Of a stretch of 55,186 nt of DNA, positions 33,956 to 55,186 are shown one piece after another. The DNA comes from a virus. Where the stretch lies: positions 1 to 55,186 of the IMG/VR virus record IMGVR_UViG_3300030099_006009; one strand, written 5' to 3'. Within the stretch, counting starts at the first letter, position 1. The number at the start of each line of letters is the position of its first letter. The notes below the pieces were generated by a model. The model saw only the letters and a list, made by a program, of their open reading frames with translations. It ran no database searches and had not been told where the DNA came from. Made by a program: the position numbers and the translations under genes.

Positions 33956-35310
33956 TATGTTACCTTCTTTAATTTTGGTAATTTAAGTTTTGGTGGTTGT
34001 GGATTTTCGCCATCAACTTTTTTAAGTTTTGGTAATTTTAGACTAACAGCTTGTGGTGTTTCTTTTAACACATCATTAATAATACCATTAAATTTATTTG
34101 CCATAGCTTTTAGAGAAAACTCTCTTCTGTTTTTTTTACCTAAACGAGTAGCTTTCTTTTGTATTAATTTTCTTTTCTTGTGAAAAGTTCTAATTTTTCT
34201 AACTACATCCGCTTCATTTACATTAAACCACTTTGACGGTTCTACAATAATTGGTTTCCACAAAGCCGATTTAGGAACTTCTTTTAGAAACCCATCAATC
34301 AACATAGATTCTGAATCTGTAAGAAAGTCAAGATGACCACTCCATTTAGTAGCAATCACAGGTAAGTCACAGCAACTGGCTTCTAACATAGGTCTTCCAA
34401 ATCCCTCACCATGAGTACAAGTAATGAAAGCGGCAATCTTTGGATGATTGTAAAGTGTTGACATTTCTTCAATAGTAAAGTCACCGTGTATTAAATAAAT
34501 ATTAGGTAAGTCTACACCCGTAAACATATCTTTTACTTTTTGTATTTTCTTCTTTGTTTCGTCTCTATCAAGAATACTAAAGTTGGCACCACTGGTTTTA
34601 AGAACAAGTGCTGGTGGATTAATAATATTAGAAAATGCTTTCAAAAATGATTTTATTAAAACTCCGATGTTTTTTCTATCTTCACCAAAACCACCCTTAC
34701 CCCATTGCCCTACATGTAGATAAGCATAATCTTCTTTAATAAGTTCATTTAATTCTTGATACACATTTTTTTCTAATTCATGTTTTTCTTTAGGAAAATA
34801 TATGTCTGTATCAACTCCCTCGAACAATACAGCTATAGGTTTTTCATTCTTTATCTCACCGGCTTTTTGTTTTTGACCATTGGGTAAATCTTGCATCTTA
34901 TCGTATGTACAACGATTGAAAGTATCTGCCGTAAATTTAGATGGAACTATATTAAAGTTCATTCGATTCATACCCTCTAAAAATTCAGGAGACACAACAT
35001 CTGTTTCTACACCAGCAGTTATACCGATATTGACCTTAGCACCACTGGCAAACTCATTAGGTATCCGGATATCAATAAGAACGTCTGGTTGACCTTGTAT
35101 TTGTTCTTGATTTACAAAACTATCTAATAACTTTCTATGTCTTGGAACTTCAGGTCTTAGATGATTTCGTGGTGTGTTTCCCCACTTAACATCAAGACAT
35201 TTAATATCCAAATCTTCCCTATCCATAATAGAATAAAAAAGAGAACGAGCATGGTCACCATAACCACTACGGGTATTAAAAGGTGCAATCATAACTACTG
35301 AACGTTTCAT
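33955..35310 (-). CDS. GT4 glycosyltransferase with basic C-terminal repeats
   Basis: 451 residues, GT-B fold. RSGYGDHARSLFYSI starts the acceptor domain and ITCTHGEGFGRPMLEASCCD holds the EGFG-type donor-binding motif; VIATKWSGHLDFL follows. The end carries a duplicated LKLPKLKKV (424-432 and 442-450) joined by a Pro-rich linker, basic and probably flexible. Two related GT4 genes in a row (with 35307) may be a duplication. Start ATG overlaps the stop of the upstream GT4. Confidence 0.88.
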   Translation of the reverse strand: MKRSVVMIAPFNTRSGYGDHARSLFYSIMDREDLDIKCLDVKWGNTPRNHLRPEVPRHRKLLDSFVNQEQIQGQPDVLIDIRIPNEFASGAKVNIGITAGVETDVVSPEFLEGMNRMNFNIVPSKFTADTFNRCTYDKMQDLPNGQKQKAGEIKNEKPIAVLFEGVDTDIYFPKEKHELEKNVYQELNELIKEDYAYLHVGQWGKGGFGEDRKNIGVLIKSFLKAFSNIINPPALVLKTSGANFSILDRDETKKKIQKVKDMFTGVDLPNIYLIHGDFTIEEMSTLYNHPKIAAFITCTHGEGFGRPMLEASCCDLPVIATKWSGHLDFLTDSESMLIDGFLKEVPKSALWKPIIVEPSKWFNVNEADVVRKIRTFHKKRKLIQKKATRLGKKNRREFSLKAMANKFNGIINDVLKETPQAVSLKLPKLKKVDGENPQPPKLKLPKLKKVT

Positions 35311-40151: not shown

Positions 40152-40377
40152 CTAATTCCTGTAGTGGTAACATCTCCCCACAATTTCCACAATTAAAAAC
40201 TTGGATTGGAGCGATAACTTCTTTACCAGTAGGTGAAACAATAGCAGATATTTTCTTTATAACATAACCTTGTATAAAGATACTATTCCCACACGATTGA
40301 CACTTCATAGTATCAGCATCCTTCAAATCAACTTGAACTTGTTGTTGTGGTAATGGTTTTTTTGGTTTCATATTCAT
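40138..40377 (-). CDS. Zinc-ribbon protein, 79 aa
   Basis: CQSCGNSIFIQG and FNCGNCGEMLPL make a two-CxxC zinc ribbon with a beta hairpin between. The N-terminus is Pro/Gln rich (MNMKPKKPLPQQQVQVDL). Similar small zinc proteins occur among replication genes of related phages; function unknown. Overlaps gp62 by 14 bases and gp44 by 4. Confidence 0.7.
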   Translation of the reverse strand: MNMKPKKPLPQQQVQVDLKDADTMKCQSCGNSIFIQGYVIKKISAIVSPTGKEVIAPIQVFNCGNCGEMLPLQELDELI

Positions 40378-41285
40378 TGTAGTCTCCTAAGTATGTTAGA
40401 GATGGTAGCCATAAAATTTATTTCTTTATCTACGACCAATACATCTTGATAAGAACCATTTGATATATCAACGATAATCTCTGGTAGTTTCTCTACAGAA
40501 ATATTCTCTACCTCATCATATAGGAAACGATACAGCTCTGTGTAATCTGTAAAGTTACTATCGGCCACAAACTTACGAATAGTTCTTAAATCAACACCTT
40601 GTTTTATCATATCTAAGAACTGAAGTTTGAACTCGTTATGTAACATTCCATCTTTGTCTATCTTTAACTGACCATCAATCGCCTGTCTCTGTAAATCATT
40701 GATGACTTTTCTTAAGTCAGGATATCCTGCAGTTACCACGAGTGCCAAATCGTCTAAATCAAAAGAGATATTCTCTTCTTCCAAGATATACTTGGCGTGA
40801 ACAGCAACATCTTTCTTTGATGGTGGGATAATCTTATAGGTCTGACATCTACTTTGTATCGGGTCAATAATTTTCTCAACATAGTTACAAGTCAAGATGA
40901 ATCGACAATGTTGTGAGAATGTCTCCATAAGATTACGAAGAGCCGGTTGAGCTGAGTTAACATTAAGATAATCAGCCTCATCCAAGATTACAATTTTGTT
41001 TGGTTTAAAACCAACAGAAGAAGCAAAGTTCTTAAGTTTATCTCTTACCAAGTCTATGTTTCGTTCATCCGAAGCATTAATATAGAGATAGTCACATTCA
41101 ATAGCATTTACGATAATCTTGGCAAGGGTTGTTTTACCCCCACCGGCTCTACCATACAATAATAGGTGTGGAACGTTTTGTTCCTCTATGAACCTCTCGA
41201 CTTTTGTCTTGAGAGTTTCATTACCAACATATGTATCTAATGTCGATGGACGATATCGTTCCACCCATAATCCATGTGAACTCAT
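40374..41285 (-). CDS. 44: Clamp-loader large subunit gp44 (AAA+ ATPase)
   Basis: 303 residues: ERYRPSTLDTYVG start, Walker A GRAGGGKTT (45-53), Walker B VILDEAD, sensor LTCNY and the SRC motif (QSRCQTY) for the arginine finger. Typical T4 gp44/RFC-type. With gp62 it loads the gp45 clamp for gp43. One base separates it from the clamp gene. Confidence 0.96.
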   Translation of the reverse strand: MSSHGLWVERYRPSTLDTYVGNETLKTKVERFIEEQNVPHLLLYGRAGGGKTTLAKIIVNAIECDYLYINASDERNIDLVRDKLKNFASSVGFKPNKIVILDEADYLNVNSAQPALRNLMETFSQHCRFILTCNYVEKIIDPIQSRCQTYKIIPPSKKDVAVHAKYILEEENISFDLDDLALVVTAGYPDLRKVINDLQRQAIDGQLKIDKDGMLHNEFKLQFLDMIKQGVDLRTIRKFVADSNFTDYTELYRFLYDEVENISVEKLPEIIVDISNGSYQDVLVVDKEINFMATISNILRRLQ

Positions 41286-42066: not shown

Positions 42067-44592
42067 TTAAAAAAACTTTTCAATTGTATTTTTCTTTTCT
42101 ACTGGCATATCCCAAGACATAGCATCATAAAACATCTTAATCTTTTTACTAAGGGCTTTATCAAATAATTTATCTCGGTCAATATATTGATTGATAAAAT
42201 CTATGATTTGTTTAGGATCGTCATAACCTTTGTAAGCCAAACCATCAATATTATAAGGATTTTGTTTTAGATAAACCCAACGAACCTTGTTACCATTTGA
42301 AATAGGTTCGTGGTTAGTAACCTTGAAATGTCTAAGTAAGTCATTGTAAATAACAGAAGCTTTGGTGTGAACTGGTGCTCCTTTCTTCATTGATGTAAAC
42401 ATTGTCTTACTCTGAAATCCATTTTTTGATTTATCAATGTATTTATTCATACCTTTAACACCTGTTGGAAGAGCAATCTTATCTAACTCCTCATCCTTTA
42501 GATTATTTTTAAAATTTAGAATAAACTCATCAATCTTTTCTTTTGGAACTTTGGCAAGGATAGCTTTTAGAACCTTAGTCATGAAGTCACGAAATGCTGG
42601 TGGAAATGAACTACGAACAATATCTAAACCTTTAACATCAAGTTTCTCTACTTCCAAACCACCATCGTTGATAATCCATTGACCATATCTTTTCTTGGTA
42701 ACCCAAAAAGCAGATTTAGCAATCATCTCTTGTTTAATCTCAAAACGATGGTCGCCTCTGATATTTAAAAACTTACTACTGAAGTAATTGTAAGATTTAT
42801 TAATATAGTCTTGAACCTCACCAGCAATCTTAAGGATTTGTTCTGTCATAAACTTATCATCTTCGACATCAGCATTCGGAAACCTATTCTTAACAAGTGG
42901 TAGAGCAGAGTAGAAAACTGAGTCTGTATCTGTGTAAATACAATAATCTTCCTTCGTGTTTAGTATCTTATTATAGTAACTATTAGCAATCGTTTCTGTA
43001 AATTGAATCAATTTCTGACCTGTTGTTGTCGTACCTTCAGCGTTGTCAATATCATAAAACCTAAATACTGTCAATCCTAAAACTCCGTACAAACTATTTA
43101 GAAGAATTTTCTGTACCAATTGTCGTCTGTCAAAATAACCGTGTAGTTCGTCATTCCCTTCTTCACCATACTTCTTTGCCAGTTTTCTATACTCTACTCT
43201 TTCGTTAAACCACTTCTCAAGTATTGCTGGTATAACACCCTTTTGTTTGAGGTCATACAAAACACCATTTGATGAAATGGATACTTCATTCTTGTTAAAG
43301 AAATCTTTAAGTTGTCCACTTGTAAAGGTTCTGATTGTCTTACCACCCTTATCTACAGAATAGTGTTTCTCTTCACCTTTAATAAATTCTTCCGCATCCC
43401 AACCATTTATCTTACCTATTTTAGTTTCTGGCGACATATTCAAAGACATAATGATACTTGGATACATAGATGTTAAGTCTAAATCAAATACCCAATCATA
43501 ACGACCTGGTATTGGTGATTTAACATACGCACCACTAAATCTACCCTCCGAACCGTCATATGTCACATTAGCTCCTTTACTCGGAGCAACTAAACCTAAA
43601 CTACGAAGATATACTAACATAGCACCCTCAATGTATCGAGAACTAAAGTAAACCTCTTCGTAAGGTATCCTACCCAAGTGAGATACAGCTCTAGCTAAAT
43701 CCAAAAATTTAAACTTTTGGTCAAGTGCCTTAACTATCTCAACATCGTTTAGGTTGTATTCAATAAACTTATCAATGTCATCTCTGTATAAATCATCTAA
43801 TGTACCTTCATACTCGACCTTACCTAACCCTACCTCTATTGTTCCGATATGGTCTAAACGATAACTTGATTGTTGTGTATATGTAAATTTTCTGTATAAA
43901 TCCATATAATCTAAAGAACTAACACCAGCAATTCTATACATCTTTTTGTTTGGATTATATTTAACGATTTGTATTGGTGATAGAGCATTAGCAAACTCCT
44001 CACCTAAAACTTTTGAAAGACGATTATATAAATAAGGAATATCAAAGCCATTAGTGTTCCAACCAGTAACACAAGTCGGTTGAACCTTTATCCAATATCT
44101 TAAAAACTCTTTGAGTAACTCTGACTCTGTAGAATAAAAACGAATGTCTACTTCGTCTTTGATATTGTTTTGTCCCTCTCCTAAAACATAAACACGATAC
44201 TTTCCATCGTGTTTGGTATACATAGCAACCGAGGTAACTTTGTTTTGTGCTTTAGATGGTTCAGGAAAACCATCGGTAACTTCTACCTCGATATCAAAAA
44301 ATAATTCTCTGTGGTTTTTAGATGGTTCATCAGAGTCTTCGTACCTATCCAAAAGGATACGAGTTTCTAATGGAACATCAGACTCGAACACACGACCAGT
44401 CTTAAAATCTTCCTCTGTCCAATATGTGACTTTCTTAAGTTTGTCTCCATAGATAGAGCGATATGTGCCACTTCCATCTCGAACATAGGCGTAATTCTTA
44501 AATATAAAATTTTGATAACCAGCTACATCATCCCAAAGATGAACTTCTACTTGATTACCACCTCTTTTTTCACACCAAATATTTTGATACAT
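42067..44592 (-). CDS. 43: Family B DNA polymerase gp43
   Basis: 841 residues (T4 gp43 has 898). Exonuclease motif FFDIEVEV (98-105, Asp100/Glu102), GWNTNGFDIPY exo II, DLDLTSMYPSIIMS polymerase motif A, KILLNSLYGVLG motif B, CIYTDTDSVF motif C and WVTKKRYG KKRY-like motif are all present. Proofreading and polymerase active sites appear complete. The C-terminal MPVEKKNTIEKFF may bind the clamp. The message lacks a ribosome site and has a small hairpin (44602-44615). Confidence 0.97.
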   Translation of the reverse strand: MYQNIWCEKRGGNQVEVHLWDDVAGYQNFIFKNYAYVRDGSGTYRSIYGDKLKKVTYWTEEDFKTGRVFESDVPLETRILLDRYEDSDEPSKNHRELFFDIEVEVTDGFPEPSKAQNKVTSVAMYTKHDGKYRVYVLGEGQNNIKDEVDIRFYSTESELLKEFLRYWIKVQPTCVTGWNTNGFDIPYLYNRLSKVLGEEFANALSPIQIVKYNPNKKMYRIAGVSSLDYMDLYRKFTYTQQSSYRLDHIGTIEVGLGKVEYEGTLDDLYRDDIDKFIEYNLNDVEIVKALDQKFKFLDLARAVSHLGRIPYEEVYFSSRYIEGAMLVYLRSLGLVAPSKGANVTYDGSEGRFSGAYVKSPIPGRYDWVFDLDLTSMYPSIIMSLNMSPETKIGKINGWDAEEFIKGEEKHYSVDKGGKTIRTFTSGQLKDFFNKNEVSISSNGVLYDLKQKGVIPAILEKWFNERVEYRKLAKKYGEEGNDELHGYFDRRQLVQKILLNSLYGVLGLTVFRFYDIDNAEGTTTTGQKLIQFTETIANSYYNKILNTKEDYCIYTDTDSVFYSALPLVKNRFPNADVEDDKFMTEQILKIAGEVQDYINKSYNYFSSKFLNIRGDHRFEIKQEMIAKSAFWVTKKRYGQWIINDGGLEVEKLDVKGLDIVRSSFPPAFRDFMTKVLKAILAKVPKEKIDEFILNFKNNLKDEELDKIALPTGVKGMNKYIDKSKNGFQSKTMFTSMKKGAPVHTKASVIYNDLLRHFKVTNHEPISNGNKVRWVYLKQNPYNIDGLAYKGYDDPKQIIDFINQYIDRDKLFDKALSKKIKMFYDAMSWDMPVEKKNTIEKFF

Positions 44593-44661: not shown

Positions 44662-45162
44662 TTAATCCATTAAAAAAATTTCTTGTGAATCTATCAATGT
44701 GTTTTGTATACTCCAATACAATCTCATTTCACTACCAGAGCCTTTATTTTGCATAACCTGTGTTGGACTTAATAAGTTATAAAAATATCCTAGACTGTCA
44801 ACTATAGAATATCTATTAGTAGTCCATCTCAAAGTGTCTACATTTACATTCATTGTATCTCTATTACCAAAGTTATCATACCATATTGCTTTAGTTCTAC
44901 TATTAGACAATAATCTGTAATGTCCACTTGAGTCATCTTCATCCCAATACATATTACTCCACCAATGCACCACTAATCTTTCTAAAGGTATGCTATCTTC
45001 GGAATGTAAATGTCCCCATATTGGTGTTGACGTAATCCATGTGTTATCTAATATTTCTATTCTAGGAACTCTTAGCATTGTAACTATGATATTTGATTTA
45101 TTTTGCTCTTCAATCCTATCATCACATCCGAATAATAATAATAAAAATAATAACTTTTTCAT
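44662..45162 (-). CDS. Predicted lipoprotein, 166 aa
   Basis: Begins MKKLLFLLLLFGCDDRIEEQ: a classic short lipoprotein signal with lipobox LFGC and Cys13. Asp at +2 is the inner-membrane retention signal in E. coli, but this rule varies in other phyla. The mature part is rich in Trp and Tyr (HWWSNMYWDEDDSSG, IWYDNFGNRD) and looks like a beta protein. Family unknown. It lies between the TonB-receptor terminator and the polymerase promoter, so it is probably a partner or immunity-type surface protein. AAGG lies 9 bases before ATG. Confidence 0.75.
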   Translation of the reverse strand: MKKLLFLLLLFGCDDRIEEQNKSNIIVTMLRVPRIEILDNTWITSTPIWGHLHSEDSIPLERLVVHWWSNMYWDEDDSSGHYRLLSNSRTKAIWYDNFGNRDTMNVNVDTLRWTTNRYSIVDSLGYFYNLLSPTQVMQNKGSGSEMRLYWSIQNTLIDSQEIFLMD

Positions 45163-45217: not shown

Positions 45218-47947
45218 TTAGAAATTAACAGAAAGTCCTAAGTTAAAATGTCTTGGTGTTCCCAAGAATACTTCGGCATTATGAGCAAGGTGAAGTTTAT
45301 CACCGTAGCCATTGTACTTACTGTTATCAACAGCATCTTGAACATATACATCGTCAAGTGCATTAAATACATGACCTGAAAGTGTCATGTTCAAACCAGC
45401 AATTTCTGGTAGTTTATAAGATAGATGTAAATCTAACTTACCATAAGATGGAGATTTCCATACTTGTGCTCTATCAGCATCACCGTCAACCTCACGAGAA
45501 TCAGGACTCCAATCAGCATAGTGATTATCATACCACCTGTAAAGACCTTGTACTCTTAATCCATCGATAGGTTTAACAGTTAATCCACCAACATAAGAAG
45601 TTTGTGGCATGTCTCCAACTTTGAGATTATTAAGAGCATATTCATACTCTGTAGAAGTCTGACCTATAATCTGACCTTCTTCATTGTATTCCATCTCTTG
45701 ATAATCACCTTTGGCGTCCCCATCAAAATACCAATCACCTATACTCACAGCTACATCTAAATCAACCATCTCGTGAAGAGCAATCTTAGATTCGACCTCT
45801 ACACCAGAGTGTGATTGATTTACACCTGTAAGATAAATGATGTCTGTATCGCCAGAATCACCTTGACCTGTGGTTACAGATTTAGTAAGGTTTCTATCAT
45901 TCCATTTGGTATTATAATAACTACCTTTGATAGCAACCGATTCACTTCTGTATTCCCCACCGATTTCAGTAGATGTAAATTTCTCATTATCAGGATCCGT
46001 TGAAACAGTTCCATCATAAGCAATTACATTATCTAAAATGGGTGGTTTTTGGACATATCCAACATTAGCAAATGCTGAAAGCCTGTCGTCAAGATTATAT
46101 CTACCACCACCTTTTACTTGGAAAGTAGTAATAGCATCGGCTTTTACAAGTTCTTTCTCAACAGAGAAATGGTCTTTGTAAGTATATCCAATGGTTGAAA
46201 TACCACCCATACCATAAAGATTAATCTTCTCTGTATCGTACTGTCCTTGTAAAAAAGCACCAAACCAATCAACTGTGGTATTGTTGTGATAAGCAATAAT
46301 ATCACCCAATCCAACTTTCTTACCGTCAGCATAATTGTCATCAGCATAGTCTACATAGTAGTCTCCACCAAGTAAGTCACGAACTTCTCTAGCATGTTCG
46401 ATACCAGCAGTTCTCCAATCAATACCAATCTGAACTTCAAGTTCGTCTGATACATCATAGTTTAACTTTGAAATCAAACCATAAGTATCTTGTCTATTGA
46501 TTGAGTTTCTAAGGATACCAGTGGAGCGGTTTTCGGTTTCTGACCATGCTGAATCTACATTAGTAGAGTTTTCTGCAATCTCGCCATCCCAATCCCATCT
46601 CCAAGGTGAACTCGCCCACCATTGATTACCTTCAACAGCAGGAAGTCTTTTTACACTTCCATAAGTTCCTGTACCACCACCAGAACCACCTGACCAATAA
46701 AGAACAGATGATAATCTAACATCTTCATTGATATCATAAAAATGATTTAGGTTTACAAGTGGTTTGTGAAAGAAGTTCTCTCTCTCGTTCAAAAGAGTAG
46801 GACTGTATCTATCCACAATGTTTGCACCATACATATACCAATATTGTTTTCCCTTATAGTCTGAACTAACGGGAGCCCAATTTTGGTTAAAGAACCTACC
46901 AGCTTCATGTTGAAACTTTTCACCTTCCGCAAAAGCAGTGACATCATATCCATCAATATCACCTGCTAACTCTTGTGAATAAGTAGCTATGTTCTGTTTG
47001 TATAGGTTCTGACCATGACGCTGTGGAGCACCAATGGCATACAACTCGAATCTTTGGTCATCACTTACCGCATAAGATGTACCAAGATAATAAGCCCAAG
47101 CGTCTGTCCATGTTCCGTCTATAAAACCATCACCGGTTTTACGAACAATCGTTCCACTTACTGCCAGTTTATCATTGATTAGACCTGAGTTATAATTCAA
47201 GGTAGATTTTAGAAATCCACCCTCACCGACTTCCTGTTTGAACTTTCCACCCTTTTCTTGGGCAGCAGGATCGGTGATTATATTCATAGTTCCACCAATA
47301 GATGGTGTTGCTAGATTTACGGCTGATAGACCTCTTTGCATCTGAATTGAAGAAGTGGCATCACCCACTCCATCCCAATTAGACCAATAAACCCATCCGT
47401 TCTCCATGTCATTTTGGGGAACACCGTTTATCATTACTGCAACGTTTCTCTGATTGAATCCACGAACATTGATACGGGCATCTCCCGCACCACCACCTTG
47501 TTGTGTAGCATAAACACTTGGTGTCGTATTAAGAATCATTGGTATGTCTTGTGAACCAAGACGAACTTCCATTTCCTCTTTACTGACATTAGTGTAAGCT
47601 ACAGGTGTTGTTTCATCTGCACGAGAAGCAAGAACTTCAAGTGCTGTGAGAGCAACAACATCAGTTTCTAAGTCGAAACTAACACTCCCAACTATGTCCC
47701 CAACCCTTACACTTTTGGTTTGGGATACATAACCGATGTATGAAGCAGTAAGATCGAAAGTACCTGTACCCGTCTCTATGACGAACTTACCCTCAGCGTC
47801 TGTTACGCCACCGAGTTCAGTACCTTCTATAACTACGTTTGCTCCAACAAGTGGTTCTTCTCCGTTTCCAACAAAACCAGTTACGGCTTGTCCAAAGACA
47901 AGACCAACTGACATCATCAGAACAGAGATAAGATTACGATAATTCAT
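45218..47947 (-). CDS. TonB-dependent outer-membrane receptor
   Basis: A full-length receptor of 909 residues. Signal peptide MNYRNLISVLMMSVGLVFGQ (cleavage about 19-20); a carboxypeptidase-regulatory-like domain (about 22-100: GEEPLVGANVVIEGTELGG, GVTDAEGKFVIETG); a possible TonB-box region TTPVAYTNVS; a plug with INVRGFNQRNVAVMINGVPQ, GWVYWSNWDGVG and SIGGTMNIIT; then a long barrel ending HFNLGLSVNF with a terminal Phe. Nothing looks disrupted. Start taken at 47947 as AGGAG is 7 bases upstream and the signal then starts the protein. It is between B12-dependent RNR and a strong terminator. Ligand unknown; B12, siderophore or glycan are options. Very unusual on a phage. Confidence 0.93.
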   Translation of the reverse strand: MNYRNLISVLMMSVGLVFGQAVTGFVGNGEEPLVGANVVIEGTELGGVTDAEGKFVIETGTGTFDLTASYIGYVSQTKSVRVGDIVGSVSFDLETDVVALTALEVLASRADETTPVAYTNVSKEEMEVRLGSQDIPMILNTTPSVYATQQGGGAGDARINVRGFNQRNVAVMINGVPQNDMENGWVYWSNWDGVGDATSSIQMQRGLSAVNLATPSIGGTMNIITDPAAQEKGGKFKQEVGEGGFLKSTLNYNSGLINDKLAVSGTIVRKTGDGFIDGTWTDAWAYYLGTSYAVSDDQRFELYAIGAPQRHGQNLYKQNIATYSQELAGDIDGYDVTAFAEGEKFQHEAGRFFNQNWAPVSSDYKGKQYWYMYGANIVDRYSPTLLNERENFFHKPLVNLNHFYDINEDVRLSSVLYWSGGSGGGTGTYGSVKRLPAVEGNQWWASSPWRWDWDGEIAENSTNVDSAWSETENRSTGILRNSINRQDTYGLISKLNYDVSDELEVQIGIDWRTAGIEHAREVRDLLGGDYYVDYADDNYADGKKVGLGDIIAYHNNTTVDWFGAFLQGQYDTEKINLYGMGGISTIGYTYKDHFSVEKELVKADAITTFQVKGGGRYNLDDRLSAFANVGYVQKPPILDNVIAYDGTVSTDPDNEKFTSTEIGGEYRSESVAIKGSYYNTKWNDRNLTKSVTTGQGDSGDTDIIYLTGVNQSHSGVEVESKIALHEMVDLDVAVSIGDWYFDGDAKGDYQEMEYNEEGQIIGQTSTEYEYALNNLKVGDMPQTSYVGGLTVKPIDGLRVQGLYRWYDNHYADWSPDSREVDGDADRAQVWKSPSYGKLDLHLSYKLPEIAGLNMTLSGHVFNALDDVYVQDAVDNSKYNGYGDKLHLAHNAEVFLGTPRHFNLGLSVNF

Positions 47948-48022
47948 AATCTGTCTCCTAGCTTTGTTATTGTTAAGACACATTTTTAATCACAGGTGTG
48001 TCGTCTGCCTGTCCGCATTTCA

Positions 48023-50035
48023 TTAGTTGGCATAATCCTGGTCATCATTATCACCATGCATTGGTGGAATTTCACAACTATCGTTGTTACAGAACTTATC
48101 GACATCAGCCTCTTCATTCTTTATCACACCAAATGATAACTTACCAAGTTTTGCAACTTCTTTGTTGTAAGTTTCTTCGTCAATCGCTTCATAAGGCATT
48201 TGTGGATATGCTCCCCAATCATGTCTCGGTAATAAACTAATACCCTTTAGATGATACTGATAATAGTTTAAACAAGGAGCAATCTGATTTGCCTCTGTTT
48301 CAGGATTAAATGTAACCGTACAACTTACTTGGTTGTCAGCCCAATGTCGTTGTAAAAACGCAGCAAGTGAGAATTGTTCCCAAATGGAGAGTTCGGAAGC
48401 AGTTCTGATTCCCTCTCCTACATCTACGGGCACATCGACAACCATAGTAGTTTCTTCAGAACCAAAAGCTGGTTCTAACTTATATCCAGCTTTCTCCAAT
48501 GGTTCTAATAATTCTGAGTGTTTTGATAACCTTATTCTTCTTATGTAAAATCTTGATTCAGGATAGTGAAGTCCTGGTGTAGCACCAGCAAGTAATGATA
48601 CAGTTCCACTTGGTTTAACTGAAGTGGTTTTGATACTTCTTGGAACTGCCATCCAATCTGAATATTGTTTATCCCATTGTTGGATAACATCGTACCCATC
48701 GTTTAACCACTCCTTAAACTCATCTAATCCTCTGTTGGTAACAAACTGAGCAACACCACTCACAGAACAACCTATTCTTCTATTTCTTAACATCACTCTG
48801 TTTGTATCACTCCAATGAGTTCTACCAAGTGTTACTGTTTTGGCATATAGATAAGCATACTTAAGAGTTTTCGCATAGTCTTCGAAATCATCGTGGTTGT
48901 TAGGAAATGTTTCCACTAAACAACACAACTCGTATGACTCTAAGGTTTGTTCCAAACAAGGATTACCACCCATAGCACGATGGTCTTTATTATCTCCACC
49001 ATTTTTCATACGAGAATACTTTCTCATATTATCTAACCAAGCAAAGCCAGGCTCACCATTATCCACGATTCGTTTGGCAGCCTCTGTATAATCCATACCC
49101 AACTCTGCGAATATACTATTATTACTTGTCCATCCATATGTTTCTCTATGTGGGTTTACTTTATAATTCTTTAAATCTAAATATTCTTCTGAGTGTGAAT
49201 TACCAAAGACAATTTCAGCAGTTCTTCTTACGTTACCAGCCACAACACATTTTCCGATAAGATTCATAATGTCAACTATTGTCGTGATAGTGATTGGTTC
49301 TCCACTATTTTTTTCTAATACCTTTCTAATGTCTTCATGTACTTCTTCTAATGGTTCATGTCCACTTGATACACCACCAAAACCACTTATTGGTTCTCCT
49401 GCTGGTCTTATCTTTGTGTAATCAAACTCTATTGGAGCTTGTCCGTGAAAGTAACTTTCTAATAGTAGTCTTAAAGATTCAACCCAACCCTCACGAGTAT
49501 CAGGTATTTCGTATACTTGTTCTTCTCTATTTTCTTGTATACCTTTAACTACTATCTCCCCAGCACCTTTTGTATCAAACCCCACACCGACACCTAACAT
49601 ACTCGCATCCATAAGGAAACAGAAAGGTTTAGCATAGTCTTCTTTTAGTGTTTTGGTTGATACGAAGGCACAATTGTTTAGGGCGGCATATAAACCCTTT
49701 TTCTCTGTGATAGGTGTTCCCATAGCCCACAGACCGCGTCCAGGCGGCAAAAACTTCATATTGAAAATTCGGTCATACATATCTTGAGCCGACTTTTGAG
49801 CTTGCCACGCATTCCACCCTAATTGATGTGATTCAATCCAATTCATTTGCATATTGTAAGTCCCCTCTACAACACGCTGTACGGTTTCCCACCATCTTTC
49901 ATTTTTACCATTATCTTTGATTCTTGAGTAAGTTCTCATATAAACTAATTCACCCAAACCATTGAAACCAAACGGAGCTTTTTTTCTTTTGTATTTGCTT
50001 ATAAAGTTCTCCGATAAAACAAACTTTTTACTCAT
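48023..50035 (-). CDS. nrdJ: Class II (adenosylcobalamin) ribonucleoside-triphosphate reductase
   Basis: 670 residues, related to the monomeric RTPR of Lactobacillus type (about 740). FLPPGRGLWAMGT, ALNNCAFVST (first active Cys), GGNPCLEQTLESYELCCLVE (NPCxE radical site and thiyl Cys), SVKPSGTVSLLAGATPG, and C-terminal CNNDSC (redox shuttle CxxxxC) are present. It converts NTPs to dNTPs and needs vitamin B12. AAGGAAAG lies about 6 bases before ATG. The TonB-dependent receptor follows in the same direction, 75 bases on, without a terminator. Confidence 0.95.
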   Translation of the reverse strand: MSKKFVLSENFISKYKRKKAPFGFNGLGELVYMRTYSRIKDNGKNERWWETVQRVVEGTYNMQMNWIESHQLGWNAWQAQKSAQDMYDRIFNMKFLPPGRGLWAMGTPITEKKGLYAALNNCAFVSTKTLKEDYAKPFCFLMDASMLGVGVGFDTKGAGEIVVKGIQENREEQVYEIPDTREGWVESLRLLLESYFHGQAPIEFDYTKIRPAGEPISGFGGVSSGHEPLEEVHEDIRKVLEKNSGEPITITTIVDIMNLIGKCVVAGNVRRTAEIVFGNSHSEEYLDLKNYKVNPHRETYGWTSNNSIFAELGMDYTEAAKRIVDNGEPGFAWLDNMRKYSRMKNGGDNKDHRAMGGNPCLEQTLESYELCCLVETFPNNHDDFEDYAKTLKYAYLYAKTVTLGRTHWSDTNRVMLRNRRIGCSVSGVAQFVTNRGLDEFKEWLNDGYDVIQQWDKQYSDWMAVPRSIKTTSVKPSGTVSLLAGATPGLHYPESRFYIRRIRLSKHSELLEPLEKAGYKLEPAFGSEETTMVVDVPVDVGEGIRTASELSIWEQFSLAAFLQRHWADNQVSCTVTFNPETEANQIAPCLNYYQYHLKGISLLPRHDWGAYPQMPYEAIDEETYNKEVAKLGKLSFGVIKNEEADVDKFCNNDSCEIPPMHGDNDDQDYAN

Positions 50036-50095: not shown

Positions 50096-51172
50096 TTAAT
50101 TCTTCTTAAATACAAAAATCGGTTCATATTTATATCCCGCACCCATCACACTTGATAATGTTAGTTGTAGTGTATCATTTTGAACAAACCCAAGTTCCTT
50201 TGCTATTCTCTGAGTCTCTTCCTCTATGAACTTATACTTTGGTGTATTAGCAATATTGATTAACATATATTTACCACCCTTTAAACCTCTGTAGCAGTTC
50301 TCTATTGTTTTTCTTAAAAAACCATTTACCCACTCTTGCTTTGTCGGAAACTTTATGTAACTTTGTGTATCCTCGTCACTATACTTCTCTGTATCAAAAT
50401 AAGGAGGCGATGTAAAACATAAATCCAAAGAATTTCTATCTGGTATAAACTCTTCACTTCCTAATTTATGTAATTCTACTGACTTTTTCAAGTAAAAAAA
50501 ATCTTTTTTTATTTTTTGCAATCCCTCGAATGTCAAACTCGATGGTTCTGTACCAATGTACTTTTTTCGTGAACTTGCCAGAAAACCTATGAGTCTTCCA
50601 CCCCATCCACACGACATATCCCAAATATTATCACCACCAAACTTCTCATATATCAGTTTAGCAGCAGTTGGTCTAAAATTACTGACAGATTGTGTACCTG
50701 TGTATATCTTTATGGATTGTCTGAGTCTATTTTCTTTAAAAGTGTTTTTTTCCATACCCTCTTCACCTTTAAAATGTGTCGTATTCCACTTCCAACACTT
50801 ACGAATTGTCTTTTTGAATTTTTCATCGTCATTATAGATGTCCATAGGTGACATTTTAGCACCACCACATTTAACTTCCCAAAAATGTGGAAAGTATGTC
50901 CAAGCTAACCTCAAACAATGCATTGTCTGAACTATCTTATCCTCATCTAATATGGTATCAATATTAAACTTCTGTAACTTTCTCATATGGTCGTGTTTTT
51001 CTTCTTCGCGAATTGTGTAGTGGGGAAACCCATGTCTTCTGTAGTAATCAAAGACAACTTCTATCCCATACTCAATATCAACATTACGAATATCGTTTAC
51101 AACTCTATCAAACTCAACATCTCGTTCATCATATCCAAAGACATTTGTTAATATATCGGGATTACTATTCAC
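50096..51172 (-). CDS. TSPPY-motif DNA methyltransferase-like protein
   Basis: 358 residues. IWDMSCGWGGRLIGFLASS (SAM-binding, DxxxGxG-type), KYIGTEPSS and CFTSPPYFDTEKYS with the catalytic TSPPY make an amino-methyltransferase of the N4-cytosine/N6-adenine type. The N-terminal about 150 residues are a separate helical part with RRHGFPHYTIREEEK. No restriction partner is adjacent, so it may protect phage DNA or set its methylation. GTG start overlaps the helicase stop. Confidence 0.82.
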   Translation of the reverse strand: MNSNPDILTNVFGYDERDVEFDRVVNDIRNVDIEYGIEVVFDYYRRHGFPHYTIREEEKHDHMRKLQKFNIDTILDEDKIVQTMHCLRLAWTYFPHFWEVKCGGAKMSPMDIYNDDEKFKKTIRKCWKWNTTHFKGEEGMEKNTFKENRLRQSIKIYTGTQSVSNFRPTAAKLIYEKFGGDNIWDMSCGWGGRLIGFLASSRKKYIGTEPSSLTFEGLQKIKKDFFYLKKSVELHKLGSEEFIPDRNSLDLCFTSPPYFDTEKYSDEDTQSYIKFPTKQEWVNGFLRKTIENCYRGLKGGKYMLINIANTPKYKFIEEETQRIAKELGFVQNDTLQLTLSSVMGAGYKYEPIFVFKKN

Positions 51173-52526
51173 TCATTAAATCCTCATAACGAGCAGACAA
51201 CATTTGTTTAGTTTGGTTGTCTCTATTGTTGATTCTATGTTGAACATCTTTACCTTGAACTGAATTACTCTCAAAAATCTCAATCTTACCGATGTTTGTG
51301 TTGATTCTTGCTGGATAAGTTAATCCATCAGGACCAAATCTGTTCTTTATCACATGAAATCTACCAGTATTACCTATCTTATCTTCTATCTTACGACTTA
51401 ACGACATTACGAAGTCTGCTGTCATCACTTTCGCATAAGATTCAGCAACTTTAGTTGCCTCAATCACATCCTCATCCAATGCACTTCTGTTTGCCTGTGA
51501 TGCTGTCCATATTGGAACTTGTAATTCACCAGCCAAACCTCGTAAGTCCTCATAGATGTTACCAAGAGCATGTCTCATCTCACTTGACTTGTGAACATCT
51601 CTCATGATGTCAGCATAATCTACTAAAACCATATCTACTTTATCACCAAATGTAACCACTTTTTTCAGATGAGCGGAAAGAGTATTAACAGTACAAGATT
51701 TGGTTGGATAGTATTTGATAGTCAAGTTACCTTTTAGATTGAACAGTTTTTCCATCACTTCTTCTTTATGATATTTTAGGTTCTGACTTTCCACACCACT
51801 AAAAATACTATCATATCTTAATCCAACATAAGCCTCGTTTAACTCCAAAGTATAATGAACTACATTTAGTCCTTGTGATAAAGCATAAGCACCCATAGCA
51901 CTTAACACCCAAGACTTACCAATACCAGCAGGTGCCACAACAACACCAAGTTCTCCACCACCTAAACCACCTTGCATCAACTCGTTCATAATATCCCAAG
52001 GTGTTGGTGATGTCACACGAGCAGACTCCTCGTATCTTTGCTCTATATCTTGTAAGTAGTCGTGTCCTAAGTTTCTCTCAACACCAGCTTGCATAGCAGA
52101 GTCGATAAGGGATTTTATTTCATCAGTATTACCATCAACCTCTAATATCTTAGCAGATTGGATAACAGCATCTTTTAAAACTTGTGTTTTGTGGAAGTCT
52201 AATGCCTTATCTTTGATATATTCCAAGTCTTCGGCTTCCATATGTTTGTAGACTTCTTTCAAAGAGTCCTTTACATTTACTTGTAGTAAATCCGAATCAA
52301 TATCTTTTATCTTTATCTTAAATACTTCCATCGTGATGTTTGTTTTGTATTCTTGATAATACTCACGAATAGCTTTTACAATCCACTTGAAACCATCATT
52401 AGTTATATACTTCTCATCTAAGATGTCTACAATTTGCTCTAAAAAAAGTTTATCACTAATTAAACATACGACAAACTTTACTTGAAAATTATATCCAAAC
52501 TCTGATATGTTTTTTGTCTTACTCAT
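51165..52526 (-). CDS. 41: DnaB-family replicative helicase gp41
   Basis: 453 residues from the ATG at 52526 (a TTG five codons earlier is possible). The C-terminal RecA-like half holds GGELGVVVAPAGIGKSW (Walker A APAGIGKS), DMVLVDYADIM (Walker B) and WTASQANRSALDED (motif H3/H4). N-terminal part is the helical domain that contacts primase. Unwinds DNA 5'-3' on the lagging strand. Near the T4 gp41 length (475). Primase gp61 is not in the window. Overlaps the rnh fragment by 4 bases (ATGA). Confidence 0.94.
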   Translation of the reverse strand: MSKTKNISEFGYNFQVKFVVCLISDKLFLEQIVDILDEKYITNDGFKWIVKAIREYYQEYKTNITMEVFKIKIKDIDSDLLQVNVKDSLKEVYKHMEAEDLEYIKDKALDFHKTQVLKDAVIQSAKILEVDGNTDEIKSLIDSAMQAGVERNLGHDYLQDIEQRYEESARVTSPTPWDIMNELMQGGLGGGELGVVVAPAGIGKSWVLSAMGAYALSQGLNVVHYTLELNEAYVGLRYDSIFSGVESQNLKYHKEEVMEKLFNLKGNLTIKYYPTKSCTVNTLSAHLKKVVTFGDKVDMVLVDYADIMRDVHKSSEMRHALGNIYEDLRGLAGELQVPIWTASQANRSALDEDVIEATKVAESYAKVMTADFVMSLSRKIEDKIGNTGRFHVIKNRFGPDGLTYPARINTNIGKIEIFESNSVQGKDVQHRINNRDNQTKQMLSARYEDLMSE

Positions 52527-53122
52527 TTTTTGTTCTTCCAATAGTGGTCAAGAATATTAAACTCTGTTAACCAGTTGTCAAAATTAGGTATTTGTCCCCA
52601 TAATTTATCCTTTACGAACAAAGTTTGCAACTGATATTTTACTAATTTTGGCGCCATTCCTCTGACCGAATCTCCGATTTTTAGTTTTGTCTGATTTTTG
52701 ATATCAGGATCTCCCAACTGCATTAGAAGATAGTTCCTCTTTATTATCAACTCATTATCTTGTATCATCTTTGATATTCTTGTGTTTCGTGATTTCGCCA
52801 TGTCTATAAGGTCTTTGGTATTAAACTCCCTATCCTCTACTAAAAGTGGGAACTCTTTTATTAAGGTTTTAACACCTATACCTCTAACACCAGGTATATC
52901 ATCTGATTTATCACCATCCACCACTCTACAAGTTAATACATTTTGCGGGTAAACTCCAAACTCTTTTTTTACTAATTCTCTATCATATAATATTTTTTTA
53001 GTAGGTGAATAAAGTTTCACCCTATCATCCACCAACTGATAGAAGTCTTTATCAGCTGACATAATCGTAAACTTACTATCTTTAAGAACAACACTTGGGA
53101 TATAACCGTTAGTGGAAGACAT
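52523..53122 (-). CDS. rnh: RNase H/5'-3' exonuclease, C-terminal fragment
   Basis: 199 residues read from an ATG in another frame than the N-terminal piece. FTIMSADKDFYQLVDDRVKL (metal Asp and DFxQL), CRVVDGDKSDDIPGVRGIG (H3TH DNA-binding block with SDNIPG-like motif) and VKTLIKEFP are family blocks of FEN/T4 RNase H. It lacks the N-terminal nuclease start, so by itself it would be inactive. Together with 53017-53541 it makes almost a full enzyme, missing the EADD strip and in a shifted frame. A gene broken by a deletion or an assembly error. Confidence 0.8.
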   Translation of the reverse strand: MSSTNGYIPSVVLKDSKFTIMSADKDFYQLVDDRVKLYSPTKKILYDRELVKKEFGVYPQNVLTCRVVDGDKSDDIPGVRGIGVKTLIKEFPLLVEDREFNTKDLIDMAKSRNTRISKMIQDNELIIKRNYLLMQLGDPDIKNQTKLKIGDSVRGMAPKLVKYQLQTLFVKDKLWGQIPNFDNWLTEFNILDHYWKNKK

Positions 53123-53541
53123 TCCAAATACTCAACAAGTCTCTTAAGTTGGAGAGCCATACTTTCTCGTTCATCATGAGGACCTCCACCCCAATCGACA
53201 AGACGATTCAAACGACTTCTAATCTTACGACCAGCTTTATATTGTGGATATATTTTTTGTCGTGGTTTGGAAGAGTTCTTACCGTCAAATACAATAATAC
53301 AACGAGTAGGTTTAAACTTGTTAATTGTATATCTTATCGATTTTAAAAACCCAACCAAACCACCAACATGAGCACCATCTTCGTTTAAGGAAGGATTGAC
53401 GCTGAAACTACGAATAAATGTATTGAAACCATCGACCAATAGAACATGATCGTTTAAGTTTTTAGTTTCAGGATTTACGTCAATCTCATCCTTAAATTCA
53501 TAGAATCTTTTATTTAATAGATTCTTATTGGCACTACCCAT
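53017..53541 (-). CDS. rnh: RNase H/5'-3' exonuclease, N-terminal fragment (frameshifted)
   Basis: About 174 residues from the ATG at 53541, overlapping the uvsX stop. VLLVDGFNTFIRSFS (metal Asp), IIVFDGKNSSKPRQKIYPQY with DG and the helical-arch base, and LKRLVEYLECLPLTVI are FEN-family blocks. After this the expected EADD metal site is absent; instead the frame drifts into unrelated residues and stops. The other frame continues the family at SADKDF. About 15-20 residues appear deleted, with a frame shift. T4 RNase H removes RNA primers; the phage may rely on host enzymes. Confidence 0.8.
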   Translation of the reverse strand: MGSANKNLLNKRFYEFKDEIDVNPETKNLNDHVLLVDGFNTFIRSFSVNPSLNEDGAHVGGLVGFLKSIRYTINKFKPTRCIIVFDGKNSSKPRQKIYPQYKAGRKIRSRLNRLVDWGGGPHDERESMALQLKRLVEYLECLPLTVISQVLFLKIVSLRLCQLIKTSISWWMIG

Positions 53542-54631
53542 CGGCAAACTCTTCGTCTGTAGTTACATCATCAATACCAAGTTGAGCAGAGTCATACTTT
53601 AGTATCAACTTTTCACAGATAGAGTCGTAGATGTATTCTTGAGTTTCTACATCAGATATAAGAGCACCGAAGTCTTTAGATTGGAACTTATGTTCTTCTC
53701 CATTTTGGTCAACGAAAGTATACCAAGCACCAGCTTGTTTTACTAACTTGTGGTCTTTCATTACAGTTAACCAACTCCCATAATCATCAATACCTTTATC
53801 AAAGAAAAGTGGAAACTCAGCACTTCTCAAAGGTGGACCTAATCGGTTCTTGATTACTTGAGCTCTTATTTTAATACCAATAGTATCTTTTTTGGTATCT
53901 TTGATTTGTCCCATATTCTTTAATCGAATACGAGTCGAGGCATGAAAAGGAAGAGCCTTACCACCAGAAGTAGTCCAAGGATCTCCAAACATCACACCTA
54001 ATTTTTGTCTTAACTGATTGGTAAAGATTAAACAAACTTTTTGACGAGCAATCATTTGAGTAATCTTTCTCATAGCTTTAGACAGAACGATGGCTTTACT
54101 TGTAGCCCAACCATCCTTGTCGAAGTCGGCATCCATCTCCACTTTGGTTGAAGCAGCAGCCAAACTATCGACTAATATTGTAACCAGTTTATCTTTACTT
54201 GATTCACGAATCTTTGTAACTATTGTTTCGATTGTATCAAATATATCCTCAATTGTTTCTAAGTGGACATATAACATACTATCAGTATTCACACCAATAG
54301 CCTGTAAGAACTCACTTGAAACAGCAGACTCGGTATCAATATAAACTGCAAGACCATCTTTTCTTTGGGTAGAAGCAAGAGCGTGAGCACCAATAAGTGA
54401 TTTACCACTTCCCTCTAATCCATTGATTTCTGTAATCCTTCCAGCAGCTAAACCACCGTGTGGTCTATTTGATATTGCCAAATCTAACAAGGTTGAACCT
54501 GTGCCAACCCAATCTGTTACATCGGTTGGAGTTTCTTGAACACCATCCAAGAAGTAAGCAACTTGGTTTGACTTGAATTGTTTGTTTAGTTCCCCAGCAA
54601 TTATATCCGCTAATTCATCTCTATTAGACAT
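53534..54631 (-). CDS. uvsX: UvsX/RecA-like recombinase
   Basis: 365 residues (T4 UvsX 391). Walker A GLEGSGKS (71-78), AVYIDTESAVS, Walker B VTILVDSLAA, LIFTNQLRQKLG and the DNA-binding loop region TTSGGKALPFHAS are characteristic. Promotes strand exchange and recombination-dependent replication, working with gp32. The start has AGGAG 6 bases before it, placed right behind the hairpin at 54643-54683. Confidence 0.95.
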   Translation of the reverse strand: MSNRDELADIIAGELNKQFKSNQVAYFLDGVQETPTDVTDWVGTGSTLLDLAISNRPHGGLAAGRITEINGLEGSGKSLIGAHALASTQRKDGLAVYIDTESAVSSEFLQAIGVNTDSMLYVHLETIEDIFDTIETIVTKIRESSKDKLVTILVDSLAAASTKVEMDADFDKDGWATSKAIVLSKAMRKITQMIARQKVCLIFTNQLRQKLGVMFGDPWTTSGGKALPFHASTRIRLKNMGQIKDTKKDTIGIKIRAQVIKNRLGPPLRSAEFPLFFDKGIDDYGSWLTVMKDHKLVKQAGAWYTFVDQNGEEHKFQSKDFGALISDVETQEYIYDSICEKLILKYDSAQLGIDDVTTDEEFADG

Positions 54632-54694: not shown

Positions 54695-55186
54695 TTATGA
54701 ATTAAATAACTTATCGAAATCATCTTCTACATTTGAAGAACCTTCAGTAGCAACCATTTCTGGTTCTTTTTCTGTTGTTTCTTCTGTAGAATCTGATGGG
54801 TTTAGAAAGTTAGAAAGATGACTCTTTAACTCATCAAAAGTTGGTTCTTGATACAACTCTTTGATGTCAGGTTGTTCATCTAACAATCTTTGTAGTAAGT
54901 TAGAATCATCGGAAAGTGCTGTAACGTTTGGTTTGACACGAATGGTAGTCTTACCATATTGGTTACCAGCTTCAGCAGGCGTTTGTCTTTCGACAACAAT
55001 ATCACGACCTGTTGTAGCATCGGATATATCACCATAGTCTGGATCGGCTATGATACCAAGAAGTTCTTGATATACAGTTTTACCAAATCCCCAAAACTTT
55101 ACACCTTCGGATTCTTCACCACGAACAACGACAGGAACAAAAGTTCTCATCTTTGGTTCGATTCTCTTACCTTGAATCCATTCATC
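54695..55186 (-). CDS. 32: ssDNA-binding protein gp32-like, C-terminal part (cut by window edge)
   Basis: The frame is open to the right edge; 163 residues are visible and the start is outside. Seen are MRTFVPVVVRGEESEGVKFW, GFGKTVYQELLGIIADPDYG (as in T4 gp32 near the zinc-core end), GRDIVVERQTP, and a low-complexity acidic tail ending NVEDDFDKLFNS like the gp32 acidic C-terminal tail that recruits partners. Followed by a terminator, as is gene 32 in T4. The N-terminal zinc-binding part is not in the window. Confidence 0.85.
   Translation of the reverse strand, partial: DEWIQGKRIEPKMRTFVPVVVRGEESEGVKFWGFGKTVYQELLGIIADPDYGDISDATTGRDIVVERQTPAEAGNQYGKTTIRVKPNVTALSDDSNLLQRLLDEQPDIKELYQEPTFDELKSHLSNFLNPSDSTEETTEKEPEMVATEGSSNVEDDFDKLFNS

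Follow-up and report, generated by a model that had tools for sequence, protein, structure and literature searches.

The window analysed here, a 55,186-nucleotide stretch of viral DNA (IMG/VR record IMGVR_UViG_3300030099_006009), carries on its minus strand an intact gene for a TonB-dependent receptor (TBDR; Table 1). Its start is conserved among relatives and gives the 909 residues proposed in the initial annotation, while a plus-strand reading of the same interval contains 42 stops. Pfam recognised a CarbopepD_reg_2 domain (7.6e-15) and a Plug domain (PF07715, 4.8e-14; 53.2 bits, cut-off 23.9), with no Pfam match for the barrel, and the last residue is a Phe that is invariant in 40 phage rows (F909). 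The carboxypeptidase-regulatory domain, plug and Phe end noted earlier were thereby recovered. The N-terminus is hydrophobic, the signal peptide being judged by eye only. The predicted model (pLDDT 85.5, pTM 0.80) matched solved TBDRs over plug and barrel with Z up to 39.4, including 532–533 residues aligned to BtuB at that score (rmsd 2.6), so that the structure prediction and fold search proposed in the initial annotation confirmed the plug-barrel fold. An earlier model, built from phage rows only, was poor (pLDDT 56.8) and was set aside. Within the TonB-box-like segment, EVLASRA was invariant among 40 phage copies, and A107, R109 and A110 were almost invariant across 82 phage and host rows.

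The B12-dependent ribonucleotide reductase (RNR; 370.9 bits against TIGR02505, cut-off 340.05), family B DNA polymerase, DnaB-like helicase, UvsX, single-strand DNA-binding protein (SSB) and clamp loader genes all lie on the same strand. The shared direction with RNR and polymerase, and the placing of a complete receptor inside a phage replication unit, were thus correctly described, and the latter now holds for many related phages. The lipoprotein-like gene directly downstream matched no family in Pfam, NCBIfam or PHROGs, was present at a minority of related loci (9 of 81, including the window's own), and was matched weakly and in part by 2 of 17 host genomes.

Table 1. Positions of the receptor gene, its leader and neighbouring genes in the window
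Feature	Position	Strand	Basis
TBDR, 909 aa (open frame to 47983, 921 aa)	45218..47947	-	translation, conserved start, Pfam, model
TonB-box-like segment ALEVLASRA, residues 102-110, N-terminal domain/plug junction	47618..47644	-	"TonB box" is a positional assignment
Shine-Dalgarno-like AGGAG, 7 nt 5' of the ATG at 47947	47955..47959	-	sequence only
H-type pseudoknot leader, ~36 nt, A-rich loop between helices	47977..48012	-	covariation, phage loci comparison
Leader P1 helix	48012-48008 with 47996-47992	-	
Leader P2 helix	48002-47997 with 47982-47977	-	
Class II (adenosylcobalamin-dependent) RNR, RTPR type, directly upstream of TBDR	48023..50035	-	TIGR02505, PF17975, PF21995
Small lipoprotein-like gene, 166 aa, MKKLLFLLLLFGC..., directly downstream of TBDR	44662..45162	-	lipoprotein by eye
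Family B DNA polymerase, next in unit	42067..44592	-	PF00136, phrog_262
DnaB-like replicative helicase	51165..52541	-	phrog_19
UvsX-like recombinase	53534..54631	-	phrog_97
SSB, frame open at window end	54695..55186	-	phrog_1192
Clamp loader subunit	40374..41285	-	phrog_168

The pseudoknot leader

A pseudoknot precedes the TBDR gene in all 149 phage loci with enough upstream sequence, and its helices show compensatory changes. It was found in the phage copies only: a pattern that recovers 71 of 80 phage loci detected it in none of 80 host loci, and a pattern search of 20 host genomes was likewise negative. The simple fold was unremarkable (z -1.13), as calculated by a program that cannot draw pseudoknots. 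No Rfam 15 family matched in the window, the leader giving sub-threshold hits only (E 0.42 or worse), and a known riboswitch was accordingly rejected. A switch sequestering the Shine-Dalgarno sequence was also rejected, the expected pairs between the 3' strand of P2 and this region being 1.59 against 1.98 in the shuffled control (73 of 76 distinct leaders). We regard the covarying leader as a candidate for a new family of RNAs, one whose target gene is defined.

Distribution, selection and origin of the phage copies

The search for viral homologs called for in the initial annotation found relatives encoded in 307 of 308 pattern-matched viral stretches. Among the best 80, which were kept, the TBDR gene lies between RNR and polymerase in all 68 loci with both in order. 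RNR ends within 1300 nt upstream in all 135 fetched TBDR loci with more than 1300 nt of upstream sequence. Because independent contigs, in records of up to 165 kb, hold the gene in the same place, it is not chimeric. Frames open for 850 codons or more were present in 114 fetched loci (75 distinct proteins), a set that omits an uncounted number of shorter frames and loci cut by contig ends. One match (G144) contained a stop, which falls in the extension before the conserved start; from that start the frame is open (L028:5769-8495). Among phage copies, the median dN/dS was 0.149 and the maximum 0.27 (calculated for those pairs, 654 of 780, whose dS was below 1.6), which indicates that the gene is under purifying selection.

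The gene was missing from 22 fetched RNR-polymerase intervals on 20 contigs (16 of 33 in the polymerase search and 6 of 34 in the RNR search). Whole-record searches found it absent from 8 of 8 such records and from one carrying another RNR (L130), any of which may be fragments. Since related phages often lack it, the gene is dispensable and accessory. Unannotated "Bacteriophage sp." records of 5–32 kb from human faeces also matched the TBDR, two of them over 95–99% of the query at 30% identity; these were left aside.

In the tree, 13 phage rows nest among homologs from Marinimicrobia (Fidelibacterota), in a clade otherwise made up of Marinimicrobia and FCB-group rows, and chromosomal Marinimicrobia receptors (e.g., L231 and L232) are full-length matches of up to 68% identity. 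The phage TBDR was apparently borrowed from ocean Marinimicrobia, and the phylogeny indicates repeated exchange between phage and host. The phage RNR was found in none of 16 host genomes, a search that had no positive control and is hence uninformative. The cellular origin and the patchy presence among related phages are those of an auxiliary metabolic gene.

Possible import of nucleotide-type compounds and other readings

The best explanation, to which we give a probability of roughly 40%, is a host-derived auxiliary metabolic gene: a functional outer-membrane importer from Marinimicrobia kept among the replication genes of T4-like marine phages, with nucleotide-type compounds as the favoured ligand. 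The protein is likely to be an importer driven by TonB, whatever its kind, and a receptor with no import role would be unlikely; nucleotide-type organophosphates as its ligand are possible rather than probable. This ligand is favoured because homologs in other phyla often precede a pyrophosphatase of the ENPP type and because the phage neighbours belong to nucleotide metabolism. On the phage side, the surroundings are those of dNTP and nitrogen metabolism. Besides RNR, they include thymidylate synthase, a PNKP-type phosphatase and dUTPase, which separate the TBDR from the polymerase in two loci (L062 and L072), and glutamine synthetase, which directly adjoins the receptor in 19 loci on 16 contigs; no phosphodiesterase was found beside the TBDR.

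On the host side, a same-strand gene for an ENPP-type nucleotide pyrophosphatase (NPP) starts no more than 700 nt downstream in 18 of the 72 loci with at least 500 nt of downstream sequence, usually as the next gene. One NPP tested matched PF01663 at 1.4e-96, its best PDB matches being ENPP5, ENPP1 and a bacterial NPP. A deoxynucleoside kinase directly follows the homolog in two loci (L232 and L276), an NPP and an S1/P1 nuclease lie 3–5 kb upstream in another (L236), and an S1/P1 nuclease 1.1 kb upstream in a fourth (L249). The association with NPP is mostly outside Marinimicrobia: in 19 genomes of the Marinimicrobia set, none of 15 strong NPP genes lay within 1.5 kb of a TBDR homolog, and an NPP was directly downstream in 1 of 60 loci of that set (L519), some loci having been fetched twice. 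Most Marinimicrobia neighbours point to no pathway. When the phylum to which the L293 genome belongs was sampled evenly, 2 of 16 strong NPPs were found to adjoin the TBDR family (3 of 17 if the chosen centre is counted), and two more adjoin a more distant TBDR; in a further search, a strong NPP was present in 10 of 14 genomes and adjoined the TBDR in nine, 9 of the 14 having been chosen for adjacency.

From expression and leader control to TonB dependence, transport and ligand, we infer the following course. The TBDR would be translated during infection under the phage-specific pseudoknot leader, exported and inserted in the outer membrane, where the host TonB-ExbBD would drive it and so increase the uptake of one scarce compound for DNA synthesis. 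Nucleotides, dinucleotides, nucleic-acid fragments or other organophosphates would be the ligand class, and ENPP-type or S1/P1-type enzymes of the host would cleave them after import. Of the three roles offered in the initial annotation, feeding the infected cell is the best supported, with a proposed ligand.

Import of another nutrient, such as a peptide, glycan or iron complex, is about as likely as that of nucleotide-type compounds. Carbohydrate uptake has been suggested for a megaphage SusC (PMC9723777), and the TBDR shows weak similarity to the heme/transferrin and SusC models of NCBIfam, the two best scores being far under their cut-offs (58.8 against 323.75 bits, and 53.7 against 368.25 bits for SusC/RagA TIGR04056). 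Fold does not discriminate between ligands, as BtuB (Z 39.4), Fiu (39.3) and FecA (38.9) are tied. Against this reading, the neighbours of the host homologs, judged only by eye and by clustering, included no recognisable SusD, CAZyme or siderophore gene. As for a SusD-type partner in the phages, the lipoprotein-like gene downstream in the window matches no family and is absent from most relatives fetched.

Cobalamin import by a BtuB-like receptor, feeding the B12-dependent RNR encoded immediately upstream, was considered first because of this neighbouring class II enzyme, whose gene ends within 1300 nt upstream of the TBDR in every one of the 135 loci. B12 supply is discussed as a constraint for phages with such an RNR (PMC6370689, PMC10547690). 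BtuB structures also head the fold list, in the tie given above. We now think this reading unlikely, as the riboswitch test went against it. One cobalamin riboswitch each was found in 15 of 20 Marinimicrobia-set genomes holding a TBDR homolog, followed in 14 of the 15 loci by an open frame in the same direction, of which the one tested has a Plug domain; in all 15 the riboswitch lies away from the TBDR homolog, and in those 14 it precedes a different gene. The phage TBDR matches these loci at only 21–26% over the N-terminal domain and plug (E up to 0.001 at five of the 15 loci, weaker or no matches at the others), so the likely BtuB of the host is another receptor. No cobalamin riboswitch was found in 11 host TBDR loci, the window or 5 phage loci. 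The co-occurrence with RNR is itself uninformative, because many related phages with the same RNR, those of the 22 intervals described above, lack the TBDR.

FhuA, BtuB and similar TBDRs are known phage receptors, and a phage-made copy might serve as receptor decoy, receptor replacement or means of superinfection exclusion, altering the adsorption of other phages. FhuA-pb5 structures are among the fold matches, and the downstream lipoprotein-like gene of some phages loosely recalls Llp, the FhuA-binding exclusion lipoprotein (8a60). We consider this more doubtful than cobalamin import. A comparison of the phage copies gave the long barrel loops and the strands the same average conservation (0.783 each; loops 0.55 to 0.87), so that the loops do not on average evolve faster. 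The lipoprotein-like gene is confined to the minority of loci noted above, and one would expect an additional intact receptor to promote adsorption rather than block it. With loops of this kind, a dN/dS of 0.15 and a full-length, host-like copy, neither replacing or decoying the entry receptor nor blocking superinfection, both raised in the initial annotation, found support. That the gene is a bystander or an assembly artefact (a piece of bacterial DNA joined to viral contigs, or an unused gene), as its bacterial-like domain architecture and close cellular kin might suggest, is very improbable in view of its constant position and orientation across many independent contigs, its low dN/dS and a leader seen in phage contigs alone.

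The usual view of phages is that they recycle the nucleotides of the host and rely on its uptake, and we know of no cultured phage for Marinimicrobia. Marine phages carrying the TBDR may instead feed the cells they infect. More tentatively than the importer reading itself, a large group of T4-like marine phages, probably infecting Marinimicrobia, could run its own import, with a captured TBDR that takes up nucleotide-type compounds (or B12) and is switched on or off by a new pseudoknot RNA confined to phages, bringing DNA building material from seawater into phage replication; the leader would stay at the site while the coding sequence was exchanged with host copies more than once. An outer-membrane importer that is conserved, under selection and equipped with its own leader would imply that lytic phages also alter what an infected cell takes up, here in Marinimicrobia and in the most nutrient-poor part of the biosphere. 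The way in which phages that depend on a B12-dependent RNR and need much P and N meet that demand thereby becomes a testable question.

Comparison with known systems

Phage TBDRs were known before only as annotations. The initial annotation's remark that there is no well-described phage equivalent is nearly right: PMC9723777 already annotates a SusC-type TBDR, with a suggested role, in Mar_Mega_1, a marine megaphage, and in LR745206. In a literature search that did not extend to preprints or to most subscription journals, no study of the function of a phage TBDR was recognised. The best viral fold match, BFVD A0A8D9FQQ5 ("TonB-dependent receptor SusC [uncultured marine phage]", E 3e-28), is, we infer, the Mar_Mega_1 protein, and tblastn matched LR745206 weakly (27% over 22% of the query). 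These are also marine-phage TBDRs, of low similarity and described by annotation only; unlike the Mar_Mega_1 SusC, the TBDR studied here is a conserved gene of a phage group with its own leader and a fixed operon position.

In Flavobacterium, clusters of TBDTs with phosphodiesterases have been proposed to serve organic phosphorus uptake, with nucleic acids among the suggested targets (PMC8115612). These PUS TBDTs cluster with phosphodiesterases or phytase, and some of them share pf07715 and pf13715 with the phage TBDR, beside which no phosphodiesterase was found. BtuB-type receptors share the plug-barrel fold, and the phage TBDR adjoins a B12-dependent enzyme; in contrast to BtuB, it carries an N-terminal carboxypeptidase-regulatory-like domain and its host counterpart is not under a cobalamin riboswitch.

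Cyanophages carry host-derived auxiliary metabolic genes for nutrients. Like these, the phage TBDR is host-derived and may relieve a limiting resource for replication, whereas it is a TonB-dependent importer of the outer membrane and theirs are periplasmic or cytoplasmic proteins. The mRNA of phage T4 gene 32 has an H-type pseudoknot upstream of its ribosome binding site, and the leader described here is likewise an H-type pseudoknot 5' of the ribosome binding site in a T4-like phage, preceding a TBDR gene rather than an SSB gene.

The receptor gene in the replication unit

At window positions 45218–47947, where the initial annotation had placed it, translation and Pfam searches showed a complete TonB-dependent receptor (TBDR), encoded on the minus strand. 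The open frame begins at 47983 (921 codons), and the start at 47947, common to the relatives, gives 909 codons; the Pfam domains of the protein are CarbopepD_reg_2, at the N-terminus, and Plug. The AlphaFold2 model (pLDDT 85.5, pTM 0.80), whose input alignment combined 13 phage rows with 69 cellular ones, had a SusC entry of an uncultured marine phage as its top viral structure match. Among known structures BtuB (Z 39.4), Fiu (39.3) and FecA (38.9) tied; the predicted fold thus confirms the receptor class and does not separate ligands. By its plug, its predicted barrel and its C-terminal Phe, the protein belongs to the TBDR class.

Upstream, the same strand carries SSB, UvsX, a DnaB-like helicase, a DNA methylase-like gene and the B12-dependent class II ribonucleotide reductase (RNR); a small lipoprotein-like gene, the family B polymerase and a clamp loader follow downstream. 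TBDR relatives were encoded in 307 of 308 pattern-matched stretches of viral contigs, and the best 80 were retained. In this set the TBDR lay between RNR and polymerase in all 68 loci with both found in order. The RNR ended within 1300 nt upstream in 135/135 loci with enough sequence (loci up to L230, several being views of one contig), and the TBDR was present in six of six chosen records of 94–165 kb. Because the arrangement recurs across viral contigs and long records, a chimeric contig is excluded, and the proposed placement in a phage replication unit stands. The gene is real, conserved, phage-borne and selected.

Features with coordinates in the window and in compared loci
Feature	Position	Strand	Remark
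TBDR	45218–47947	minus	feature under study
Pseudoknot leader	48012–47977	minus	H-type; between RNR stop and TBDR start
Lipoprotein-like gene	44662–45162	minus	after TBDR
Exonuclease-like gene	52523–53547		split over two overlapping frames
Nol-like carbamoyltransferase	22593–24200		away from replication unit
Glycosyltransferase	33955–35310		away from replication unit
GtrB-like gene	10095–11321		weak match; away from replication unit
Leader without TBDR match	L217:8004–9673		first TBDR-like codons, then 483-aa gene of another kind
Protein at TBDR's usual place	L122:7298–7936		dockerin-like stretch; C-terminus resembling type 9 secretion sorting signal (both by eye)
manA RNA	L006:2862–3062		RF01745, 73 bits; TBDR phage record

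The lipoprotein-like gene, for which family searches gave no match, also occurs in a few relatives (77–85% identity in most, 49% in L025). Two loci, L062 and L072, carry thymidylate synthase, PNKP-type phosphatase and dUTPase between TBDR and polymerase; their polymerases are 26–27% identical to that of the window, and their RNR and TBDR 75–81%. Among the loci compared, glutamine synthetase (PF00120) stands directly beside the TBDR in 19, from 16 contigs, either between RNR and TBDR (L009, L010, L077) or after the TBDR (L011, L034, L047 and others), and is a candidate second metabolic gene of these phages. The split gene, which looks like a 5'-3' exonuclease gene, is a single frame of ~350 codons in the related contigs L003, L005, L016, L020 and L030. 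The split could reflect an error of sequencing or assembly, or else a frameshift, genuine or programmed. The carbamoyltransferase, glycosyltransferase and GtrB-like genes suggest sugar modification.

The pseudoknot leader

All 149 TBDR-bearing phage loci that extend >150 nt upstream carry the leader. The 156 leader-bearing loci, which include the separate phage branch L107, L142 and L220, represent 76 distinct sequences. Covariation was evaluated on 56 distinct leaders, 55 of these 76 plus that of the window. Standard pairs filled 98.2% of the pair cells, and 6 of the 11 pairs had changed on both sides. None of 500 shuffles matched the standard-pair, both-side-change or covariation values, and 85/500 matched one measure, further pair types. 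Shifting the pairing partners cut pairing to 18–58%.

The pattern that detects 71 of 80 phage loci found no leader in 80 host loci, and a pattern tolerating at most one mismatch found none in 20 host genomes. This one-mismatch pattern matched five of six TBDR phage records, the sixth (G139) having a longer loop, and none of three records without TBDR. Among the matches listed in a viral-wide pattern scan, 76 loci were examined: 73 lead into a TBDR, and the sequence of the remaining three breaks off within 65 nt. L217, L221 and L223 keep the leader with no TBDR match, L217 being a natural replacement of the receptor. The leader matched no Rfam family and is the most novel part of the finding. 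We tested whether it acts as a switch by masking the SD and rejected this reading.

Accessory status and exchange with hosts

The TBDR occupied 17 of 33 RNR–polymerase intervals when the polymerase was the query and 28 of 34 when the RNR was. It was missing from 22 intervals (20 contigs), 15 of them just 27–137 nt long by matched ends. In the nine records that lack it at this position (of at most 131 kb, possibly fragments; one, L130, with a different RNR), no copy was present elsewhere. The gene is accessory but under selection. Median dN/dS among phage copies was 0.149 (maximum 0.27; 654 of 780 pairs, those with dS <1.6). Median identity to the window across the 80 TBDR-selected loci was 82% for the TBDR (n=80), a value inflated by the choice of loci, 87% for the RNR (n=75), not selected directly, 54% for the polymerase (n=73) and 56% for the helicase (n=54).

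The closest cellular relatives, up to 68% identical, are from Marinimicrobia (Neomarinimicrobiota/Fidelibacterota), where the family occurs at E ≤1e-150 in 34 of 61 genomes of the phylum, with one match in 32 of these. A tree built by a quick method, rooted at the midpoint and with SH-aLRT support, placed the 13 phage rows within a clade otherwise of Marinimicrobia and FCB-group rows. They did not form one group there, and the starred branches require at least three label changes. Three captures would explain this, as would a single capture with two transfers back to hosts; under either history, phage and host swapped the gene repeatedly. Since phage TBDRs nest among Marinimicrobia homologs, we infer that these phages infect Marinimicrobia. 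One Marinimicrobia MAG contig (L231, JAFMFP010000048.1) encodes a TBDR that the tree places within the phage rows, and behind it a second copy begins; this is possibly a phage-to-host transfer.

Candidate roles and known systems

Import of nucleotide-type organophosphates is suggested by the host loci: in 18 of 72, from records with the labels Calditrichia, KSB1, Ignavibacteria/Melioribacteraceae, Bacteroidetes/Bacteroidales, Chlorobiota and Gracilimonas, a same-strand gene for an ENPP-type nucleotide pyrophosphatase (NPP) starts within 700 nt downstream of the TBDR homolog. The phage gene itself is surrounded by RNR and polymerase and, in some phages, by thymidylate synthase, dUTPase and PNKP-type phosphatase (L062, L072) or by glutamine synthetase. 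In Marinimicrobia, none of 15 strong NPP genes lay within 1.5 kb of a TBDR homolog and 1 of 60 loci had the link; when the L293 phylum was sampled evenly and the centre left out, it held for 2 of 16 strong NPPs. Because the link is nearly absent from the former and sparse in the latter, we give this ligand only about one chance in three.

Another hypothesis, import of cobalamin for the adjacent B12-dependent RNR, was tested through the cobalamin riboswitches of host genomes. Exactly one cobalamin riboswitch exceeded the cut-off in 15 of 20 genomes with a host TBDR homolog, followed in 14 of the 15 by an open frame in its direction. That frame is not this TBDR: five of the 15 loci matched it (E ≤0.001) at 21–26% identity across N-terminal domain and plug, with weaker or no similarity at the rest, and the one such frame tested contained a Plug domain. 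No cobalamin riboswitch was found at 11 host TBDR loci. As the riboswitch precedes a different gene, the host B12 receptor is probably another protein; the ligand may have changed within phages. A decoy or superinfection-exclusion role, also raised in the initial annotation, would predict truncated or fast-evolving loops or lost transport features and has no support: nothing of the kind was seen, and among phage copies the mean conservation of long loops equals that of the strands (both 0.783; single loops 0.55 to 0.87).

The earlier view that no well-described phage equivalent exists is nearly right: our literature search, with most subscription journals and all preprints outside its scope, brought up no study that we recognised as testing the function of a phage TBDR. 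A passage of PMC12494485 does no more than name a TBDR as one of the genes of metagenomic islands, ExbB is reported in phages of Lentisphaerae strains (PMC11361711), and the main text of a virioplankton study of B12-dependent RTPR contains neither "transporter" nor "btuB"; a text listing gave no TonB for it either (PMC10547690). Clusters of TBDT and phosphodiesterase have their model in PMC8115612, and PMC9723777 annotates a SusC-like TBDR in the marine megaphage Mar_Mega_1 and in LR745206, suggesting carbohydrate uptake for it.
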